Shown here piece after piece: positions 28,736-44,451 of a DNA stretch of 44,595 nt. Made by a program: the position numbers and the translations under genes. Source of the stretch: Rhodospirillales bacterium. Its GTDB lineage: Bacteria > Pseudomonadota > Alphaproteobacteria > CACIAM-22H2. The notes under the pieces were generated by a model. That model worked only from the letters and a program-made list of their open reading frames with translations. It did not search any database and was not told where the DNA came from. The DNA is taken from NCBI GenBank assembly GCA_947445225.1, contig CANFCX010000007.1:1-44595 (forward strand). The letters are read 5' to 3'. Every line of letters begins with the position of its first letter. Positions within the stretch are counted from its first letter, which is position 1.

Positions 28736-29968
28736 TCATCCACGGATGTCCTCTTCGGGATAAGCACCGATCTTGTGGATCGATAGATCGGCCCCGGCGG
28801 CCTCCTGCTCCGGCGTCAGCCGGATGCCCACGGTGCTTCGCAGCACCCCATAAACAAGGAGGCCCGCAGCCAGGGCATAAAGCGACCCGCCGATCGTGCC
28901 GGCGATTTGCGACACCAGCCCGACTCCACCAAGTCCACCGAGCGCCTGTTGGCCGAAGATGCCGCAGGCGATACCGCCCCAAAGCCCGCACATGCCGTGC
29001 AGCGGCCACACGCCGAGCACATCGTCCACGCGCCAATTCGCTTGGCAACGATTGAACCCCCAGACGAACAATCCACCCGCGACACCGCCGGTGATCAGCG
29101 CGCCAATCGGGTGCATCACATCGGAGCCGGCACAAACGGCAACCAAGCCGGCGAGCGGCCCATTGTGAACAAAGCCCGGATCGTTGCGCCCAACAAAAAC
29201 GCTGACCAACACACCACCGATCATCGCCATGAGTGAATTGACGGCGACCAAGCCGCTGATCCCTTCGACGCTTTGTGAACTCATGACATTGAATCCAAAC
29301 CAGCCGACCGACAGGATCCAGGCACCGAGCGCGAGTAAGGGAATGTTGGATGGCGGGATCGCCGCCGCGGGTCCGCGGGCGCCAAAACGGCGGTGGCGGG
29401 CGCCCAACATCAGCACCGCGCCCAGCGCGATCCAGCCACCCATGGCGTGGACCACGACCGATCCCGCGAAATCATGAAACTTTGCCCCGAAGGCGGCTTC
29501 CATCCAATCCTGAAAGCCGAACCGTGTGCCCCAGATCGCGCCTTCGAAGATCGGGTACACGAGTGCGACCAGAATGAAGCTCGCCGCGGCCTGAGGCCAG
29601 AATTTCGCCCGCTCGGCGATGCCGCCGGAAATGATGGCCGGAACTGCCGCCGCGAAGGTCAAAAGGAAGAAAAACTTCACCAGGTCGTACCCCGACGCCC
29701 CGTACAGAGCACCGGAATCCGTCGCCGAGCCCGCAAGAATGGGCGCCGAGGCGAAGAAATCGACGCCATAAGCCACGGCGTATCCGATGAAAAAATAGGC
29801 AATCGTCGATACCGAAAAATCGACCAGTATCTTGACCAGGGCGTTGACTTGATTTTTGCGGCGAACCGTACCGGCCTCTAGGAAAGCAAAGCCCGAGTGC
29901 ATGGCCAGCACCATGATGGCGCCCATAAGCAGAAAGAATACGTCTGCTCCGGTCCTGGTAGTCTGCAT
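28736..29968 (-). CDS. Ammonium transporter (Amt family), copy without cleaved signal
   Basis: An Amt/MEP/Rh channel of 410 residues that lets ammonium into the cell. The first segment, DVFFLLMGAIMVLAMHSGFA, begins directly after a short N terminus, then FLEAGTVRRKNQVNALVKIL. The two pore histidines are in SVVVHAMGGW and WPLHGMCGLWGG. About 11 membrane segments are visible. The ATG at 29968 follows AAGGGGGA; an open extension to 30046 has no conserved sequence. It is distinct from the second Amt upstream and lies downstream of it, with its own likely promoter. Control by the PII protein encoded nearby is inferred. Confidence 0.93.
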   Translation of the reverse strand: MQTTRTGADVFFLLMGAIMVLAMHSGFAFLEAGTVRRKNQVNALVKILVDFSVSTIAYFFIGYAVAYGVDFFASAPILAGSATDSGALYGASGYDLVKFFFLLTFAAAVPAIISGGIAERAKFWPQAAASFILVALVYPIFEGAIWGTRFGFQDWMEAAFGAKFHDFAGSVVVHAMGGWIALGAVLMLGARHRRFGARGPAAAIPPSNIPLLALGAWILSVGWFGFNVMSSQSVEGISGLVAVNSLMAMIGGVLVSVFVGRNDPGFVHNGPLAGLVAVCAGSDVMHPIGALITGGVAGGLFVWGFNRCQANWRVDDVLGVWPLHGMCGLWGGIACGIFGQQALGGLGGVGLVSQIAGTIGGSLYALAAGLLVYGVLRSTVGIRLTPEQEAAGADLSIHKIGAYPEEDIRG

Positions 29969-30048
29969 GGCGTCCCCCTTTTGCGTCTTTTCGCGGCGAC
30001 CACCGGAAGCCTTCTCCCCGGGGTCATGGGGGATTATTAGCCTCAAAA

Positions 30049-30057
30049 ATTATACCA
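30049..30057 (-). promoter_or_regulatory. Extended -10 promoter of the downstream amt gene
   Basis: On the minus strand TGGTATAAT, a perfect TATAAT with an upstream TGn extension, sits about 81 bases before the ATG at 29968. No good -35 lies at the right distance, which is normal for extended -10 promoters. Confidence 0.5.
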
Positions 30058-30226
30058 ATACAGAGTCTTAGAGCGTCAGAGGCGCCACTTTCTGTCAAAA
30101 TCGTGCAAATGCCCTACTTTTTGGCAGTTCATCGCAAAGACAACGCGACTGGCGCGCCGACCACAGATGCCAAAATATTGGGCGATACCGGGAAAAGTTG
30201 TACTTTTTTTGGGCGACTAGACAGGA

Positions 30227-30258
30227 AATGGCCGGCAACCCGTAGGTCGCCGGCCATT
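30227..30258 (-). terminator. Hairpin after the signal-peptide-bearing amt gene
   Basis: AATGGCCGGC (30227-30236) pairs perfectly with GCCGGCCATT (30249-30258), 22 bases after the stop of the leftward gene. On the minus strand it is followed by TCCTGTCT, a poor T tract. Confidence 0.5.
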
Positions 30259-30280
30259 CGCCCGGTCTTATGAGCGGCGG

Positions 30281-31582
30281 CTAACGAACCGCTTCGCCAT
30301 GCAGGGTCATGTCGAGACCCTCGCGTTCGTCGTCATCGCTGACGCGGAGCCCGATAAGCACGTCGATGACCTTGAGGATGATCGCCGAGGCGACGGCGCA
30401 ATAGACGACCGTAACCCCGATCCCATAGAGCTGGGTCACGACCTGGCCGGCGTTTCCTTCGAGCAATCCGGGGAACGTCCCCACCGATTCCGCGGCAAAG
30501 ACGCCGGTCAGGATGGCCCCGACGATGCCGCCGACCGCGTGGACGCCGAAGGCATCGAGCGAGTCGTCATAACCGAGAGCATGTTTCAGGCTGGTCGACG
30601 CCCAGAAGCAGATAACCCCCGCGGCGAGGCCGATGATCAGCGCCCCACCCGGCAGCACGAAACCGGAGGCGGGGGTGATGGCCACCAAACCGGCGACGGC
30701 GCCGGAAACAATGCCGAGAACACTCGGTTTGCCCTTGGCCAGCCATTCCGCGAACATCCAGGACAGGGCCGCGGCGGCCGTCGCGATTTGGGTCACCGCC
30801 ATCGCCATGCCCGCGCGGCCGTCCGCCGCAACCGCCGATCCGGCATTAAACCCGAACCAACCGACCCACAGCAGCGAGGCGCCGATCACGGTGAGGGTGA
30901 GGTTATGCGGCGCGAAATTCTCGGTGCCAAAGCCGCGCCGCTTGCCGATGATCAGGGCCGCCATCAATCCGGCAACGCCGGCGTTGATGTGGACGACCGT
31001 GCCGCCGGCATAGTCGAGGACACCGGCGCCGCCGAGGAAACCGCCGCCCCAGACCCAATGGGCAACGGGCACATAAACGAGAAGCGACCACGCACCCATG
31101 AACCACAACATCGCCGAAAATTTCATGCGGTCGGCGAAGGCCCCGGCGATGAGGGCGGGTGTAATGATGGCAAATGTCATCTGGAAGGTCATGTAGACGG
31201 TTTCCGGAATTGTCTTGGCCAGGGGATTGATCGACCCGACTTCCATCCCCGACAGCAACACGCGCGATAGACCGCCGAGATAAGCGCCGCCTTCGGTGAA
31301 GGCCAGGCTATATCCCACCACCATCCACAAGACGGTGACGAGGCAACACACGGCGAATGACTGCATCATCGTCGCCAGAACGTTCTTCTTGCGCACCATG
31401 CCGGCGTAGAAGAGCGCCACCCCAGGCACGGTCATCAGAAGAACCAAGGCGGTCGAGGTCATCATCCAGGCCGTGTCGCCGCTATTGATCGGCGATGCCT
31501 CCTGGGCGATGGCGGTCGAGGTGAACATCGCAGCAAACGCGGCCACCATCGCCGCGAAAGACATTTGGACTGGTTTTTTCAT
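30281..31582 (-). CDS. amtB: Ammonium transporter (AmtB type) with N-terminal signal peptide
   Basis: A 433-residue Amt channel. Its first 30 residues, with VAAFAAMFTSTAIA before QEAS, look like the cleaved signal peptide known for many AmtB proteins. Then come INSGDTAWMMTSTALVLLMT and GVALFYAGMVRKKNVLATMM. The pore histidines are in GGTVVHINAGVAG and FGVHAVGGIVGA. The ATG at 31582 has GGAG seven bases upstream; an ATG at 31594 overlaps that site. The gene lies 356 bases after glnK and has a sigma-54-like promoter, so nitrogen-limited expression is likely. AmtB is normally blocked by GlnK when ammonium is plentiful. Confidence 0.94.
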   Translation of the reverse strand: MKKPVQMSFAAMVAAFAAMFTSTAIAQEASPINSGDTAWMMTSTALVLLMTVPGVALFYAGMVRKKNVLATMMQSFAVCCLVTVLWMVVGYSLAFTEGGAYLGGLSRVLLSGMEVGSINPLAKTIPETVYMTFQMTFAIITPALIAGAFADRMKFSAMLWFMGAWSLLVYVPVAHWVWGGGFLGGAGVLDYAGGTVVHINAGVAGLMAALIIGKRRGFGTENFAPHNLTLTVIGASLLWVGWFGFNAGSAVAADGRAGMAMAVTQIATAAAALSWMFAEWLAKGKPSVLGIVSGAVAGLVAITPASGFVLPGGALIIGLAAGVICFWASTSLKHALGYDDSLDAFGVHAVGGIVGAILTGVFAAESVGTFPGLLEGNAGQVVTQLYGIGVTVVYCAVASAIILKVIDVLIGLRVSDDDEREGLDMTLHGEAVR

Positions 31583-31678
31583 CGTAAACTCCATCTCCGA
31601 CGGCCCTCTGGCCAGAAGCCGGCTCGCGCGACCGTTCTGAAATCGGGGGCCGACGCAATCACGGTCTGTACGCTGTTC

Positions 31679-31694
31679 ATCAAGAAGCGTGCCA
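31679..31694 (-). promoter_or_regulatory. Sigma-54-like promoter of amtB
   Basis: On the minus strand the sequence TGGCACGCTTCTTGAT matches the -24 element TGGCACG perfectly and the -12 element TTGC at three of four bases, with the correct 4-base gap. It lies about 97 bases before the amtB ATG. The same core recurs in front of glnK. Confidence 0.55.
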
Positions 31695-31859
31695 TGGCGC
31701 ACTAGCGCCCTTAGCCACGCGAATCCCCGGAAATCCCCAGCCGATGAACCGCCCTGCCCAATAGACGGGCCTCGACTGCACAAAAAATAGCCTTTACGGT
31801 TCTAAGTGATTTATTTTTGAGCATTAGCGTCATGCGAACGAATCGGGAAGGACAAATCA

Positions 31860-36576: not shown

Positions 36577-39500
36577 ATGCCGGCGCGCACGGATAGGGAC
36601 AAGTCCAAGTTAATCGAAAAGATCGTGGCGCTCGCCCGCGGCAAGGTCGAGCCCGGCAAGGCCGACGAGGCCGAGGCTTTCATCCGTGTCTATTACGCCA
36701 ATGTTCCGCCCGACGACATTGCCGACGCGACCCCGGAGAATCTGTGCGGCGCCGCCCTCGCCCTTTTGTCGTTCGGCCGGTCGCGGGCTGGAGGAGCCGC
36801 CAAGGTGCGCGCCTTTAATCCGCGATTCGAGGAACATGGCTGGTCGTCCTCCCACACGGTCATCGAAGCCGTTACCGACGACATGCCGTTTCTGGTCGAT
36901 TCGCTGACCGGCGAGTTGAACCGGATGGACCTGACCGTCCATCTTGTCGTGCACCCCACCGTCCATGTTCGCCGTGACGCCAAAGGCGCTGCCGAGGCTC
37001 TCGGATCCGGCGCTGCGAACGCGCGCGCGGAATCCTTCATCCACGCCGAGGTCGACGAACAGGCCGATCCGGACATGATCGAGACCATCCGCGCCGGGAT
37101 CGAAAGAGTGTTCGCCGATGTCCGGCTGGCCGTCACCGATTGGCGGGCAATGCGCGCCAAGGCCGCCGACATCCTGGCCAAGATCGACGGCGTGCCGCTG
37201 CCCAAGGACGAAATCGGCGCCGGAGGCACTTTTCTCGAATGGCTCGATGCCAACAATTTTACGTATCTCGGTTATCGCGACTACACGCTGGACGGCGACA
37301 ACTCCGATGCGCGGTTCAAGGTTGTCGAAGGCTCCGGCCTCGGGGTTCTTCGCGATCCGGCGGTCTCGGTCTATGACGATGCCAACGAGGCCGCGACGCT
37401 CCCTCCGGAAGTCCGCGATTTCCTGAGACAACCGAAGCTGCTGCGTATCGCCAAGGCCGACCACCGATCGAGGATCCATCGGCGCAGCCTGATGGATGTC
37501 ATCGCCGTGAAGTCATTCGACGCCAAGGGTGCGGTCGCCGGAGAGCGCATGATCCTCGGCTTGTTTACCTCCGCGGCCTATAGCCAGAGCCCCCGCGACA
37601 TTCCACTCTTGCGCGAAAAGCTGGAGGCCGTGATGCGCCGCTCCGGCTTCACGCCGGGCAGCCATGACGGCAAGGCGTTGCTCCACATCCTTGAGACCTT
37701 TCCCCGCGACGAACTCTTCCAAATCGGCGAGGACGACCTGTTTGGCATGGCGCTCGGCATCCTTCATCTCCAGGAGCGGCAGCGCACCGCCCTCTTCGTC
37801 CGCCGCGATCCCTTCGAACGTTTCCTCTCCTGCCTCGTCTTCTGTCCCCGGGACCGCTACACCACCGAGCTGCGGCGCCGCTTTGAAACCATCCTCGAGG
37901 CTGCTTTCAACGGCAAGGTGACGGCATTCCAGCCGTTCCTGTCCGAGGAATCGGTGCTCGCGCGCATCCATTTCATAGTTCGCACAAGACGCGGCGCCAT
38001 TCCCGACTACCGCATCGAGGATATCGAAGCCCGCCTGGTCGAGGCCGGCAGAAGCTGGACCGATGCGTTGAAGGACGCCTTGGTGGCGGCCAAGGGCGAA
38101 CGTGCCGGGCTTGCCTTGTTCCGGCGTTATGGCGAAGCCTTCTCCGCGGCCTATCGCGACTGTTTTGCGGTCGCGGCCGCGATCCACGACATCGACCGAG
38201 TGGAAGAGGCGCTGACGCAAGGCCGCCTCGCGATGAGCCTCTACCGCCCGGTCGAGGCGGCGGAGAACGCGCTGCGTTTCAAGATATTTCACGGCCACGG
38301 CGCCGTGCACCTATCGGACATCCTGCCGATGCTGGAGCATATGGGCCTGCGCGTCGTGGAGGAAACACCCTATCCGGTGACGCCGCAGGGCGCGGCCGAG
38401 CCGGTGTGGATGCACGATTTCAGTCTCCTTTCCCGCACCGGCGGCGGAATCGACATCGGTGTGGCGAAAGCCGACTTCCAAGAGGCGTTCGCCCGAATTT
38501 GGTCCGGCGAGTTGGAGGACGACGGATTCAACCGTCTGGTGCTGCTCGCCCATCTCAATTGGCGCGAGGTCACGATCCTGCGCGCCTATTGCAAATATCT
38601 GCGGCAGGCCGGCATCGCCTTCAGCCAAACCTATATGGAAGACACGCTGGCCAACAATCCTGAGTTGGCGCGCCTTCTCGTCGAGATTTTCCGCGTGCGC
38701 TTCACGCCCGGCAAAGACACGTCCGAACGCCTCGCCGCCGCCGAAATGGAAGCTGAGTTCCTGAAGAAACTCGATGCGGTGAGCAATCTCGACGAAGATC
38801 GTATCCTTAGGCGATTTCTCAATGTCCTGCAGGCGACGCTGCGCACGAACTTTTTCCAGACGACCGCGAACGCGCCGAAACCTTATTTGTCGTTCAAGCT
38901 CGACAGCCTGGCGGTCGAGGAGCTGCCTCTGCCGCGGCCTCGATACGAAATCTTCGTCTATTCGCCGCGCGTCGAGGCGATCCATCTGCGCGGCGGCAAG
39001 GTGGCGCGCGGCGGCATCCGCTGGTCCGACCGGCGCGAGGATTTTCGCACCGAAGTCTTGGGCCTGATGAAGGCCCAGATGGTGAAGAACGCGGTCATCG
39101 TTCCGATGGGCTCCAAAGGCGGCTTCGTCGTCAAACGTCCGCCGACGGAAGGCGGGCGCGACGCCCTCCAGGCCGAGGTCGTGGAGTGTTACAAGACATT
39201 GATACGCGGGCTTCTGGACCTGACCGACAACCTGAAGGGCGACAAAGTCGTGCCGCCCGCCGACGTCGTTCGCCGCGACGACGACGACACCTATCTGGTC
39301 GTCGCCGCCGATAAGGGAACCGCCACATTTTCCGACATCGCCAACGGCGTTTCGCGCGAATACGGATTCTGGCTCGACGATGCCTTCGCCTCCGGCGGCT
39401 CCGCCGGTTACGATCACAAGAAAATGGGCATCACCGCGCGCGGCGCGTGGGAATCGGTGAAACGCCATTTCCGCGAACTCGGCGTCGATGTGCAATCGAC

Positions 39501-41409
39501 CGCCTTCACCGTGGCCGGCGTCGGCGACATGTCCGGTGACGTCTTCGGTAACGGCCTATTGCGGTCGAGCCATACCAAGCTGGTCGCCGCGTTCGACCAT
39601 CGCCACATTTTCATCGACCCCGACCCCGATCCCGCCGCGAGTCTCAAGGAGCGCGAACGCCTGTTCAAGCTGCCGCGCTCGTCCTGGGCGGACTACGACA
39701 AGGCCGCGCTGTCCCCCGGTGGCTCGATCATCGACCGCAAGGCGAAGTCGGTGGCCGTGACGCCGGTCGTGGCGAAGCTCCTCGACATCAAGGCCGAAAC
39801 GATCACCCCGGCGGCGCTCATGCAGGCCATCCTGCGCGCCAAAGTCGATCTCTTGTGGTTCGGCGGCATCGGGACCTACGTCAAGGCTTCAACCGAGAGC
39901 GCCGCCGAGGCCGGCGATCGCGCCAACGACTCCATCCGCGTCAATGGCCGCGAGATTCGCGCGCGTGTCGTGGGCGAAGGCGCCAATCTCGGCGTCACCC
40001 AACGCGGTCGTATCGAATATGCGCGCGCGGGCGGGCGAATCAACACCGACGCGATCGACAATTCCGCTGGCGTCGATACCTCCGATCACGAGGTCAATAT
40101 CAAGATCCTCCTCGGCGAAGTCGTCGGCCGGGGCGATCTGACGTTGAAACAGCGCAACGACTTGTTGACGTCAATGACCGACGAGGTCGCCGCGTTGGTG
40201 TTGCGCGATAACTATCTGCAGACACAGGCGATCAGCGTGGCGGAGGCGCAAGGCCATCGCTCGATTGACCAATATGCCCGTCTGATGCGCGCCCTCGAAC
40301 GCGCGGGCAAACTCAACCGGGCGATCGAATTCCTGCCCGATGACGAGGGACTGGCCGAACGTCAGAATTCGGGAACCGGACTGACTCGCCCGGAACTCGC
40401 GGTGTTGCTTGCTTATGGCAAGATGTCGCTCCACGACGAGTTGCTGCCCTCCGACCTCCCGGACGACGCGCTCCTGGTCGAGGATCTGCTGCGATATTTC
40501 CCCAAGGCGCTCAAGGCCAAACACCGTGACGCCGCCGAACGGCACCGGCTGCGGCGCGAGATTATCGCCACGGTTGTCACCAACAGCATGGTCAACCGGG
40601 TCGGCCCCGCCTTCGTCAACGAAATGCGCGAGCGAACCGGCCGGTCGGCGAACGAGATCGCACGCGCGTACGCCGTCACGCGCGATGTTTTCGACCTGCG
40701 CAAGATATGGACCGCCATCGAAGGCCTGGACAACATGGTCCCGGCCAAGACCCAGACGGACATGTTGCTCGCGGTCAGCCGCCTGGTGGATCGAGCCACG
40801 TCGTGGTTCCTGCGCAACGGCACCCACCCGATTGACATTGCCGCCTATGTCGCCGAGTTCGGTCCCGGAGTCGCGGCCATCGCCCAGGCATTGCCCAAGA
40901 TGCTGGCGGCCGAGCGGCGCGAGGCGCTCGCCCGCCGAACCGAAGCCTATGCCAGCGCCGGCGTGCCCCAGGTTTTGGCGGAACGCGTGGCCGGGCTCCG
41001 CGATCTGCCCGCCAGCGGCACCATCGTCCGCCTGTCGCGCGGCGGTGCGTTCGACGTCCAAACCGTGGGCCGCGTCCATTTTGGGGTCGGCGCCCGTCTG
41101 GGCATCGATTGGCTACGCGGCGCGGCGCAGCGGCTGGATCCCGCCACGGCCTGGCAGAAACTCGCCGTCGGCGCCGTACTCGACGATCTTGTCGCGTTGC
41201 AAAGCGAGATCGCCAAGAAAGTGCTCGCCGCGGTTGATGCCGCCGCTGCAGATAAGGCGAGCGCGGGCTTGGAGGCGTGGCTCGCCCCCCGACGCGCCGC
41301 GGTCGACCGATTCGAAGAAACCTTAAGCGAAATCAGGGCGGCGAACGCCGTCGACCTCGCCATGCTCACCGTCGCCACGCGCGAACTGCGCGCGCTCGCG
41401 ACGGTCTAG
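36577..41409 (+). CDS. NAD-specific glutamate dehydrogenase, large (GDH-180) type
   Basis: This enzyme oxidises glutamate to 2-oxoglutarate and ammonium with NAD, mainly in amino-acid catabolism. At 1610 residues it belongs to the large COG2902 class. A long N-terminal regulatory part (about 1-700, with ACT-like segments such as AVTDDMPFLVDSLTGELNRM) precedes the catalytic region: RGGIRWSDRREDFRTEVLGL near 810, VPMGSKGGFVVKRPP near 845, and the nucleotide site FTVAGVGDMSGDVFGNGLL near 977. A C-terminal helical region follows. GGTGGAACG is upstream of the ATG. The gene is transcribed alone or with the SIR2-domain gene 45 bases downstream. Confidence 0.96.
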   Translation: MPARTDRDKSKLIEKIVALARGKVEPGKADEAEAFIRVYYANVPPDDIADATPENLCGAALALLSFGRSRAGGAAKVRAFNPRFEEHGWSSSHTVIEAVTDDMPFLVDSLTGELNRMDLTVHLVVHPTVHVRRDAKGAAEALGSGAANARAESFIHAEVDEQADPDMIETIRAGIERVFADVRLAVTDWRAMRAKAADILAKIDGVPLPKDEIGAGGTFLEWLDANNFTYLGYRDYTLDGDNSDARFKVVEGSGLGVLRDPAVSVYDDANEAATLPPEVRDFLRQPKLLRIAKADHRSRIHRRSLMDVIAVKSFDAKGAVAGERMILGLFTSAAYSQSPRDIPLLREKLEAVMRRSGFTPGSHDGKALLHILETFPRDELFQIGEDDLFGMALGILHLQERQRTALFVRRDPFERFLSCLVFCPRDRYTTELRRRFETILEAAFNGKVTAFQPFLSEESVLARIHFIVRTRRGAIPDYRIEDIEARLVEAGRSWTDALKDALVAAKGERAGLALFRRYGEAFSAAYRDCFAVAAAIHDIDRVEEALTQGRLAMSLYRPVEAAENALRFKIFHGHGAVHLSDILPMLEHMGLRVVEETPYPVTPQGAAEPVWMHDFSLLSRTGGGIDIGVAKADFQEAFARIWSGELEDDGFNRLVLLAHLNWREVTILRAYCKYLRQAGIAFSQTYMEDTLANNPELARLLVEIFRVRFTPGKDTSERLAAAEMEAEFLKKLDAVSNLDEDRILRRFLNVLQATLRTNFFQTTANAPKPYLSFKLDSLAVEELPLPRPRYEIFVYSPRVEAIHLRGGKVARGGIRWSDRREDFRTEVLGLMKAQMVKNAVIVPMGSKGGFVVKRPPTEGGRDALQAEVVECYKTLIRGLLDLTDNLKGDKVVPPADVVRRDDDDTYLVVAADKGTATFSDIANGVSREYGFWLDDAFASGGSAGYDHKKMGITARGAWESVKRHFRELGVDVQSTAFTVAGVGDMSGDVFGNGLLRSSHTKLVAAFDHRHIFIDPDPDPAASLKERERLFKLPRSSWADYDKAALSPGGSIIDRKAKSVAVTPVVAKLLDIKAETITPAALMQAILRAKVDLLWFGGIGTYVKASTESAAEAGDRANDSIRVNGREIRARVVGEGANLGVTQRGRIEYARAGGRINTDAIDNSAGVDTSDHEVNIKILLGEVVGRGDLTLKQRNDLLTSMTDEVAALVLRDNYLQTQAISVAEAQGHRSIDQYARLMRALERAGKLNRAIEFLPDDEGLAERQNSGTGLTRPELAVLLAYGKMSLHDELLPSDLPDDALLVEDLLRYFPKALKAKHRDAAERHRLRREIIATVVTNSMVNRVGPAFVNEMRERTGRSANEIARAYAVTRDVFDLRKIWTAIEGLDNMVPAKTQTDMLLAVSRLVDRATSWFLRNGTHPIDIAAYVAEFGPGVAAIAQALPKMLAAERREALARRTEAYASAGVPQVLAERVAGLRDLPASGTIVRLSRGGAFDVQTVGRVHFGVGARLGIDWLRGAAQRLDPATAWQKLAVGAVLDDLVALQSEIAKKVLAAVDAAAADKASAGLEAWLAPRRAAVDRFEETLSEIRAANAVDLAMLTVATRELRALATV

Positions 41410-41454
41410 CGCCGCATTCGATCCGAACGCCGACGCGGCGACCGCAGGAAAAAA

Positions 41455-43587
41455 ATGAGGAAACTAGAGTCCGCGGATATCGCCGCCTGGATCGGGCAGG
41501 GTCCGCCGCCCATGCTTCTCCTGGGCGCGGGCGCGTCGACGCCGGCCATGCCGCTGGCCAATGAGATCAAACACGAAATCCTCGTTCAAGCCATGAAGGC
41601 CGCGGCATCGATTTCTTCGGGGAGCGACGATCGCAAACGGCTGGCCGACCTGGAGCAACGACTCGCGGAGCCGCACCTTACCCTAGAGCTTCTATGCGCC
41701 ACCTTGCGATACCGGCTGCGGCTGTCCGGTGAGGACATCGCGCGCCTGCTCCGCTCGGTTCTCGGGGGGATTCAGCCCAACGCATTTACGCGCGCGGTCG
41801 CGGCCTTGCGCAAGGCGGGGCGGCTGGGCCCAATTCTGACCGCCAACGCCGACACACTTCTCTACCGAGCCATCGCCGAAAGCGGAGAGCAATTCAGACT
41901 GGTCACGAAGAATTCTTGCGCGAGCGCGGGCGCGCAAAATCCTGCCGTCGATATGAACGACGTCTGCGCCTTCCACGGCACGCTGCTCTCGCCCGCGGAC
42001 GTTGCCGACGACACCGTCCCATCCCAAACCTATGCGCCGCCGGCGGCGGTGGACATGCAGGGGATGGCCCGCCCATTCCCCCCGCAAATGGCGGCATATC
42101 TGAAGGCCGCCATCGATGCCTATCCGCGGGTCCTGGTCTTCGGCTATTCGGGCAACGACCATTACGACATGAACCTATTGCTGCGGCGCATGGTTCGAGA
42201 CCGCCCCAACGCTCTGGACAATTGGCTGTGGCTGTCCGCGGACGGCGATCCCGGCGGGCTCGCGGACTTATTTTGCGACGAACAAGGCAGCCTCCGCGTC
42301 GCCGCCTTTGGCCAGGCATCGTCCAAGACGTTTTGCGCGGCGGCGGCTTCGTTGCTCGCCCTCCCGGGCGGGCGGTACGACGACACGCCGGCCAACGAAC
42401 TGGAGTGGACCGAGAGAGTCTCGGAATATTTCTCCCAGAGATTATCTGCGATTCAACACCGTCTCGACCTTTCGGAGTTGATCGACGACCTCGAAAAGCG
42501 ATTGGATTATGCGTGGGCGGTGGCGGAACGGTTCCAACTCGACAATTTCGGTTATGACCAGATCGAGATCCGTGCCTTTGGCGGGCTGGATCGGCGCGAA
42601 AGCGGGCAACCGCAGGGTTATGAAAACGTGGCCTTTGGGGCGTTCGTCGAGGCCCAGGAAGAATTTTGGCGACTGCGCAACATGGTCGGGCAGGCAGGCG
42701 CGGCGTCGATCGATGCCGTCGTCACCCGGTTCACCAAGATCCAGCGCGATATCGCTTCGGCTCTCAACCGGCCGCTGCGCGACATCGATCAGGCGATGCT
42801 CCTGGTCGGGCAGGCTATCTGCCAGAATCACATCGGCCTCGCGGAGCTGCATCGATTGCGCGGCAGCACACGCGGCGACGAGGCGACGAAAATTCGGGCC
42901 AAGGCCCGCACGCGCTTCCGCCGCGCCGTGGGCCTGGCCGAGCAGGCAAAAGCGTTGGCGATTAAAGTCGATGACGTGGTTTTCACCCAGGCCAGGGACG
43001 GGGCCGAGGGGATCGTCTGGCACATCGTGCCCGCCGATCTTTGGGAGCTGGCCGCCCGCGACAATTTGTGCCGGACCCTGGAGCGCGACGATGCCATCGA
43101 CGGGCTTCGAGACGTGATCCTCGCCCGCATAAGACTTGTGAACGAGGACGATTCGGCCTATGCCGCCGGACACTATGTTCGGCTGTGCAAGCTCGGCCTC
43201 GATCTCGTCAGATGCATCTACCGGGCGCAGGGTGAAACGCAGGCCCCCGCCGACGCCGCATCGATCGGAAACGAAAATGGCGGCGAGGAATTCATACGGA
43301 TCGGCGATTGGGCCATCGACGAGGTCATGGAAAATGCCGTCGGCCGATATCGATTCATCGCCGCCGACCGACATCCCTGGCTGTTGGCATGGTTCGATGC
43401 CCGCCTGATCCGCGAGGCCGCGCGGCGGGCGACCGGTGCGGCCGAGGCCGTGGTCAAGGAGGCGCAGGCCTTCTTTCCCGCCGAGGTGGTCGCGCGGCAG
43501 CCGGAACTCGCCCTGGCCATGCGTCAATTCCAGCGGCGGACCGAAGAATGCCGAAAGGCAAACCTGATCGGCGGCCTTCGGAGTTGA
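41455..43587 (+). CDS. SIR2-domain protein of unknown function (710 residues)
   Basis: The N-terminal part (about 10-320) has the motifs of SIR2-like NAD-binding domains in order: LLLGAGAST (residues 21-29), LTANADTLL (128-136, with Asn131 and Asp133), the probable catalytic His174 in CAFHGTL, and VFGYSGNDHYDMN (228-240). No zinc-ribbon cysteine quartet of true sirtuins is seen, so it resembles the SIR2-like NADase and defence type more than a deacetylase. The rest (about 330-710) is helical and unrecognised, with AEQAKALAIK-like repeat-rich stretches. AGGA lies before the ATG. No defence genes adjoin it; the neighbours are glutamate dehydrogenase and an exported methyltransferase. Activity and role are not known. 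Confidence 0.8.
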   Translation: MRKLESADIAAWIGQGPPPMLLLGAGASTPAMPLANEIKHEILVQAMKAAASISSGSDDRKRLADLEQRLAEPHLTLELLCATLRYRLRLSGEDIARLLRSVLGGIQPNAFTRAVAALRKAGRLGPILTANADTLLYRAIAESGEQFRLVTKNSCASAGAQNPAVDMNDVCAFHGTLLSPADVADDTVPSQTYAPPAAVDMQGMARPFPPQMAAYLKAAIDAYPRVLVFGYSGNDHYDMNLLLRRMVRDRPNALDNWLWLSADGDPGGLADLFCDEQGSLRVAAFGQASSKTFCAAAASLLALPGGRYDDTPANELEWTERVSEYFSQRLSAIQHRLDLSELIDDLEKRLDYAWAVAERFQLDNFGYDQIEIRAFGGLDRRESGQPQGYENVAFGAFVEAQEEFWRLRNMVGQAGAASIDAVVTRFTKIQRDIASALNRPLRDIDQAMLLVGQAICQNHIGLAELHRLRGSTRGDEATKIRAKARTRFRRAVGLAEQAKALAIKVDDVVFTQARDGAEGIVWHIVPADLWELAARDNLCRTLERDDAIDGLRDVILARIRLVNEDDSAYAAGHYVRLCKLGLDLVRCIYRAQGETQAPADAASIGNENGGEEFIRIGDWAIDEVMENAVGRYRFIAADRHPWLLAWFDARLIREAARRATGAAEAVVKEAQAFFPAEVVARQPELALAMRQFQRRTEECRKANLIGGLRS

Positions 43588-43716
43588 ACGCTCCCCCATG
43601 TAAGGGGGCGAAACGCCTCCGGCGCACGGGGACCGGTGATGGCGAAATCATCGGCGCCTCCACGGCACGGCCAAATGGATATATCATTCCTGCCTCTCAT
43701 CCAGGGTAGGTGCCAA

Positions 43717-44451
43717 ATGCGGATCGCCGGCCTGTTGCTTCTTGTAACGATTCTCCTCCCGATGCCGGTACGCGGCGCGGACGATCCATCGCTGGCGGAC
43801 CGGATGGCGATGGTCGGAGACATCAAAAGGAACGTGACGCGAACCGAGCGGATGACCGGCATTGGTGAGATCGATACCCGGGTACTGACCGCCTTCGCCA
43901 CCGTGCCGCGCCACATTTTCGTGCCGCCGCAACTGGTGCCGCATGCTTATGCCGATACACCTCTCCCGCTCGGTTTCGGGCAGAATTTGACCCAACCCTT
44001 CGTGGCCGCGCTGATGACTCATCTGCTCGGCATCAATCCTGGCGACAGGGTCTTCGAGACAGGCACCGACACGGGCTTCCATGCCGCCATTCTGATGGAG
44101 ATGGGCGCGCGCGTATTCAGCGTCGAAATCGTCGAGCCTCTTCACGCCGTGGCCAGGCGGCTGGTCGAGATTCAAGGTTATGGGCGGATCACGCTCCGTC
44201 TGGGTGATGGCTATTACGGGTGGGCAGAACACGCGCCCTATGACGCGATGTTGATTAAGGAATCGTCGGCCTCGGTCCCGGCAGCCTTGTTACGCCAGTT
44301 GAAACCGGGCGGGCGCATGGTCATCCCTCTGGGGCCACCGGACGGCCCACAATACCTGACCCTGGTCCGGAAGGATCGCGAGGGCAATATCGAGCAAGAC
44401 GCGATTCTGCCGGTCGGCTTCGCGCCGTTTCAGGGCGGCGATCGCATCTGA
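43717..44451 (+). CDS. Exported protein-L-isoaspartate O-methyltransferase-like protein
   Basis: Pcm-type enzymes methylate damaged aspartyl residues with S-adenosylmethionine. The protein (244 residues) starts with a signal peptide (MRIAGLLLLVTILLPMPVRG, cleaved near residue 21), so it is predicted to be periplasmic. It keeps TAFATVPRHIFVPPQ, YADTPLPLGFGQNLTQPFV and the SAM loop VFETGTDTGFHAAIL. In normal Pcm the loop reads G-T-G-S-G-Y; here it is GTDTGF, so cofactor binding may be altered, and SAM is normally cytoplasmic. The ATG at 43717 has GTAGGTG upstream; a longer frame from 43636 would hide the signal peptide. Confidence 0.82.
   Translation: MRIAGLLLLVTILLPMPVRGADDPSLADRMAMVGDIKRNVTRTERMTGIGEIDTRVLTAFATVPRHIFVPPQLVPHAYADTPLPLGFGQNLTQPFVAALMTHLLGINPGDRVFETGTDTGFHAAILMEMGARVFSVEIVEPLHAVARRLVEIQGYGRITLRLGDGYYGWAEHAPYDAMLIKESSASVPAALLRQLKPGGRMVIPLGPPDGPQYLTLVRKDREGNIEQDAILPVGFAPFQGGDRI

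Follow-up and report, generated by a model that had tools for sequence, protein, structure and literature searches.

The DNA analysed here, a stretch of 44,595 nt hereafter called the window, originates from a lake bacterium and carries, close behind a glutamate dehydrogenase gene (gdh), a solitary gene encoding a SIR2-domain protein of 710 aa (41455-43587, + strand, ATG start). A preliminary description of this locus proposed either a one-gene NADase system or a metabolic regulator, thus raising the question of whether the protein acts on its own or together with its NAD-dependent neighbour.

Anatomy and constraint of the SIR2 gene

At 710 codons, the reading frame is longer than any stop-free run in 200 random sequences matched in GC content and window size (longest run on the one strand scanned: mean 286, max 558 codons), and codon-level selection confirmed its status as a gene. 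A Shine-Dalgarno-like AGGA (41446-41449, +) precedes the ATG with a spacing of 5 nt. Both codon use and GC3 (0.768 vs 0.72-0.83 in the neighbouring genes) are host-like, and recent acquisition of the gene at this locus was therefore rejected, as there is no compositional sign of it. Directly after the stop codon, an inverted repeat (CCCCC-ATGTAA-GGGGG) without a T run occupies 43588-43612.

The N-terminal part of the protein (residues ~1-316; 41455-42402, +) was assigned to a SIR2-like domain of the SIR2_2 type by its GAGAS motif and a match to PF13289 at residues 127-263 (E=1.6e-4). The match, at 22.2 bits, stays slightly below the gathering score of 24.5, and the domain reads as a divergent SIR2_2 domain; the cut-off is passed by a distant full-length homologue in genome G711 (37.5 bits, E=3.1e-9). 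All motifs of the SIR2_2 superfamily (GAGxS, TxNxD, HG and GYS-type) were found on the + strand, namely the NAD-binding motif GAGAS (residues 24-28; 41524-41538), TANAD with Asn131 and Asp133 (residues 129-133; 41839-41853), the catalytic HG (His174-Gly175; 41974-41979) and GYSGND (residues 230-235; 42142-42159), and in alignment A3 GAGA and T29 were invariant. GAGXS and TTNXD have been named as motifs of the set of SIR2 proteins comprising Avs5, DSR1/2, ThsA and Ago-linked SIR2 (PMC12931631), and the sequence of the window protein contains the NAD-binding and NAD-cleaving motifs of these domains. No CxxC pair occurs in the protein, and hence a zinc ribbon is absent.

The C-terminal part (residues ~317-710; 42403-43584, +) matched nothing in Pfam, even with the threshold relaxed to E<=10, and thus constitutes a domain of no catalogued family. 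Low-confidence helical models suggest that it is probably all-helical, the models (mean pLDDT 37 for the full-length protein, built from four near-identical rows, and 44 for the C-terminus alone) being too poor for a fold search. The preliminary description was accordingly correct in listing the motifs as intact, in its residue numbering and in reporting no zinc ribbon, and its statement that about 380 C-terminal residues match nothing known holds for ~394 residues.

As these motifs fit any NAD-dependent chemistry and the similarity shown is of the SIR2_2 type only, the protein could also be a sirtuin-like enzyme with no immune role that binds NAD for signalling or modifies proteins (as a deacylase or ADP-ribosyltransferase). 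We consider this unlikely, since canonical deacetylase models matched the window protein only with E=0.012 over 42 residues, far under their cut-off, and the zinc-ribbon cysteines are missing.

Orthologues were found at the same locus in all three genomes of the host genus. The window protein and its counterpart from Lake Baikal (L005) share 89% identity over all 710 residues with a dN/dS of 0.17 (0.053/0.318), and residues 1-330 alone give 0.16 and the remaining residues 0.17; the gene is therefore under purifying selection in both halves, the C-terminal half being conserved no less strongly than the SIR2 part. The neighbouring genes gave 0.15 (the downstream methyltransferase gene pcm) and 0.11 (the C-terminal part of gdh) in the same comparison. 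For the orthologue in L006, dN/dS was 0.13, and this copy carries a +1 frameshift from a 1-nt insertion at a run of eight G, which may be an assembly error. L006 and L007 are two separate records that are identical over 3,371 bp.

Asn131 is retained in every copy. His174 is retained in the window copy, in L006, in L007 and in the distant homologue, and is replaced by Arg in L005 (CAC to CGC). To our knowledge, Arg is not a known substitute for the His of the HG motif, and judged from this residue the Baikal copy may be inactive. The substitution, together with the frameshift in L006, would fit a once-active NADase that is decaying or has been tamed in the host genus, and is either kept for a binding role or being lost. 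However, His174 is present in the window copy and in L006, dN/dS is 0.13-0.17 over the full length, and the insertion in the G run may stem from the assembly, so that we find such decay improbable. In addition, the counterpart of HG in Avs5 is a natural NG that keeps activity, although Ala or Gln at this position abolished protection (PMC12931631).

The association with gdh

The upstream neighbour, gdh (36577-41409, +), encodes an NAD-dependent glutamate dehydrogenase of 1610 aa (PF05088, E=6.5e-265) and is followed after 45 nt by the SIR2 gene on the same strand, confirming the reported position of a solitary gene beside this enzyme. Downstream lies pcm (43636-44451, +), assigned to the PCMT family of methyltransferases. 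We regard both neighbours as context, with gdh outside the system. In pcm, an in-frame ATG at 43717 stands ahead of a signal-peptide-like stretch, and a tandem pair of ammonium transporter genes lies a few kb before gdh (28736-31783). The genes surrounding the SIR2 gene in the window are housekeeping genes, and no recognised defence gene was seen among them.

This arrangement could indicate that the protein is cotranscribed with gdh and serves as a metabolic regulator or NAD sensor, tuning glutamate catabolism through NAD(H) that its SIR2-like domain would bind or consume. Neither a promoter-like nor a terminator-like site was found within the 45-nt gap, and the order gdh-SIR2-pcm is constant among the readable members of the genus. 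Beyond the genus this coupling dissolves: no gdh was found around the distant homologue in G711, and other members of the host family carry gdh without the SIR2 gene, which was absent from the 20 other genomes of the family that were searched. In those relatives in which the next few kb after gdh could be read, other genes were found there, and neither the SIR2 gene nor pcm. Even within the genus, gdh has been destroyed in L006 and L007 by an in-frame internal deletion of 3,945 bp at a 9-bp microhomology and by a frameshift upstream of the deletion, while the SIR2 gene of L006 is still constrained. The resulting pseudogene (L006:9001-9956 and L007:1628-2583) is identical in two separate assemblies, and its loss of function is recent, as the remainder is still ~91% identical. 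This recency and the 1-nt insertion in the SIR2 gene of L006 itself call for caution in using the contrast. In the Baikal genome (L005:6480-6630), a 1-nt frameshift, either real or an assembly error, splits gdh near codon 460-500.

Linkage to gdh, whose constancy the preliminary description had named as support for a metabolic role, does not extend to the distant homologue in G711, and the metabolic meaning of the shared position is weakened. We therefore rejected a functional link as the main reading and judge a role in glutamate catabolism to be doubtful; the linkage is local and was seen once, in one genus. An attractive connection is hereby corrected.

Rare occurrence and a distant homologue in a second class

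In 385 genomes of the class, the window's own genome was the sole match, and a scan of an 84,980-species collection, which detects close relatives only, returned members of the genus alone. A draw of 398 genomes from across the phylum added a single distant homologue judged convincing, that of G711, with E=6.9e-27 for one half and 2.5e-17 for the other, and further draws around it (297, 274 and 336 genomes) revealed no additional one. Likewise, no homologue was found in plasmid, phage and viral-contig collections. Weak single-domain matches in genomes (E 4e-4 to 0.05) span 50-140 residues only and were not counted as homologues. In total, four genomes were positive in roughly 1,700 genome draws, which overlap and cover a small part of the known species, so that the figure means rare and not absent. 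The SIR2 protein forms a one-gene family that is both rare and patchy in its distribution, and this is the pattern of an accessory gene.

The G711 genome belongs to the same phylum and another class, being probably that of a gammaproteobacterium. Its protein (709 aa) is 25% identical to the window protein over 643 residues (E=4e-55), with 28% identity in the SIR2 part (31% over residues 1-255) and 24% in the C-terminal part; all motifs are intact and the C-terminus is kept. Since this homologue is full-length, the two-domain layout is conserved in a second bacterial class.

In G711 the gene follows flgHIJKL, a set of flagellar genes. The sister species, the only other genome of this genus, has a single gene between flgL and the flagellin genes, and in G711 ~37 kb of extra genes separate flgL from that gene, forming an island that is missing from the sister species. 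In the island region (L085, L100 and L101; G711:C33:96300-133000), the SIR2 gene lies at one end together with an IS4 remnant, and the other genes look like sugar-polymer utilisation genes, a reading for which few proteins were profile-checked. With GC 0.33 and GC3 0.30, the SIR2 gene differs from the surrounding genes measured (0.44-0.48 and 0.40-0.47). The start of the SIR2 gene is preceded at ~190 bp by a 77-codon ORF that shares 70% identity with the end of IS4-family transposases and is, by this resemblance, a transposase remnant. Neither gdh nor a partner gene was seen in the neighbourhood, and the island held no recognised defence gene beside the SIR2 gene. The lone gene, its foreign GC, the IS4 remnant and the island together indicate that the protein, with both its domains, spreads as a single gene. 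The family was found here in two lineages only; one copy stands in housekeeping surroundings and the other in an island that looks mobile and in which no defence genes were recognised.

Proposed function and relation to known SIR2 systems

On balance, we lean towards a single-protein immune effector that depletes NAD, causes abortive infection and carries its own sensor, a reading suggested by the motifs, the parallel to DSR2, the mobility of a lone gene and the patchy distribution. The SIR2-like domain (~316 aa) would hydrolyse NAD+ via Asn131 and His174, and the C-terminal domain (~394 aa, probably helical) would keep it inactive, serving as both brake and sensor. A phage-made trigger might bind the C-terminal domain and release the SIR2 domain upon infection, and NAD loss and abortive infection would follow; in DSR2, the helical C-terminal domain binds the phage tail-tube protein as trigger (PMC10973363). 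A one-gene system is favoured because the gene is solitary at two unrelated loci and because the distant copy, foreign in base composition and close to a transposase remnant, resides in an accessory island. Of the two roles initially proposed, the one-gene system thus gains from these loci by inference, and the regulator loses ground as G711 has no gdh at its locus.

Several observations argue against an immune function. Neither the window copy, among housekeeping genes, nor the G711 copy, among likely sugar-utilisation genes, has a recognised defence gene beside it. In the host genus the gene is confined to a single locus and resembles the host in GC3 and codon use, His174 is changed in L005, the L006 copy is frameshifted, and the phage, plasmid and viral-contig collections gave no match. 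The preliminary description had set against its proposal a confinement of homologues to this locus with eroded catalytic residues; part of this pattern is seen within the genus (His174Arg in L005, the frameshift in L006), but the G711 copy lies elsewhere with its motifs intact.

More tentatively, the protein may represent a new one-gene family of immune SIR2 NADases, rare and moving as a lone gene between distant proteobacterial classes, in which the ~390-residue C-terminal part would be a new sensor fold answering to a new phage trigger. If it is an immune NADase, it would be a compact system encoded by one gene, whose sensor domain is absent from the libraries used and which falls outside the Dsr, Thoeris, Avs5 and Ago-linked groups. 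That it occurs beside housekeeping genes in a streamlined freshwater lineage would then mean that such effectors can escape searches for defence islands.

Compared with known systems, the PADLOC models recognised SIR2_2 proteins sampled from the same class as positive controls (Dsr1 down to E=0, Dsr2 2.8e-74, Ago-linked SIR2 below 1e-200), and the Dsr1 and Dsr2 models gave no match to the window protein at E<=5. The best PADLOC match was Aga_SIR2-PNTD1-PNTD2, with E=0.022 over 48 residues for the window protein and 0.0017 for the G711 homologue. No PDB chain, including any solved DSR2, ThsA or SPARSA, matched in sequence at E<=10; PDB matches to designed armadillo repeats were rejected as driven by the composition of a short Ala/Leu-rich stretch over GAGAS. 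The weak likeness to Ago-linked SIR2 is restricted to ~50-75 residues of the SIR2 part, the C-terminus is unrelated, the full-length profile is not matched, and no Argonaute-like gene was seen beside the window or the G711 copy.

ThsA and Avs5 share with the window protein a SIR2-like N-terminal effector with GAGxS and T-x-N-x-D. In contrast to ThsA of Thoeris, however, the window protein has no SLOG domain by Pfam and is flanked by gdh and pcm, with no ThsB-like gene found, and in contrast to Avs5 (SIR2-STAND), neither the window nor the G711 protein shows a Walker A/P-loop pattern, and Pfam gave no NTPase match for the window protein. Canonical sirtuin deacylases differ by a zinc ribbon with two CxxC pairs and by profile (NF003738, 14.5 bits vs a cut-off of 305). 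Among the sampled SIR2_2 proteins, the GAGAS segment of a 371-aa SIR2 protein (L029) was among the closest by BLAST (E=0.007), but that protein is accompanied by an ATPase gene read as HerA, whereas the window protein is solitary with a long C-terminus. By reading, the L029 locus (L029:2-3511) has the HerA-like ATPase gene after the SIR2 gene and a divergent TraG/VirD4-like or FtsK-like ATPase gene before it, and resembles a SIR2-HerA system that has one further neighbour.

The closest parallel in architecture is DSR2, a single protein with SIR2 at aa 1-303, the residues N133 and H171, and a helical C-terminal sensor of the trigger (PMC10973363). The window protein likewise has an N-terminal SIR2 domain of ~300 aa with N131 and H174 as the corresponding residues, but its C-terminus comprises ~394 aa compared to 702 aa in DSR2, and it fails the DSR1 and DSR2 family profiles over the C-terminal domain. 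On sequence grounds, the window protein is DSR2-like in outline, with SIR2 first and a long C-terminal part, and stands outside the families tested.
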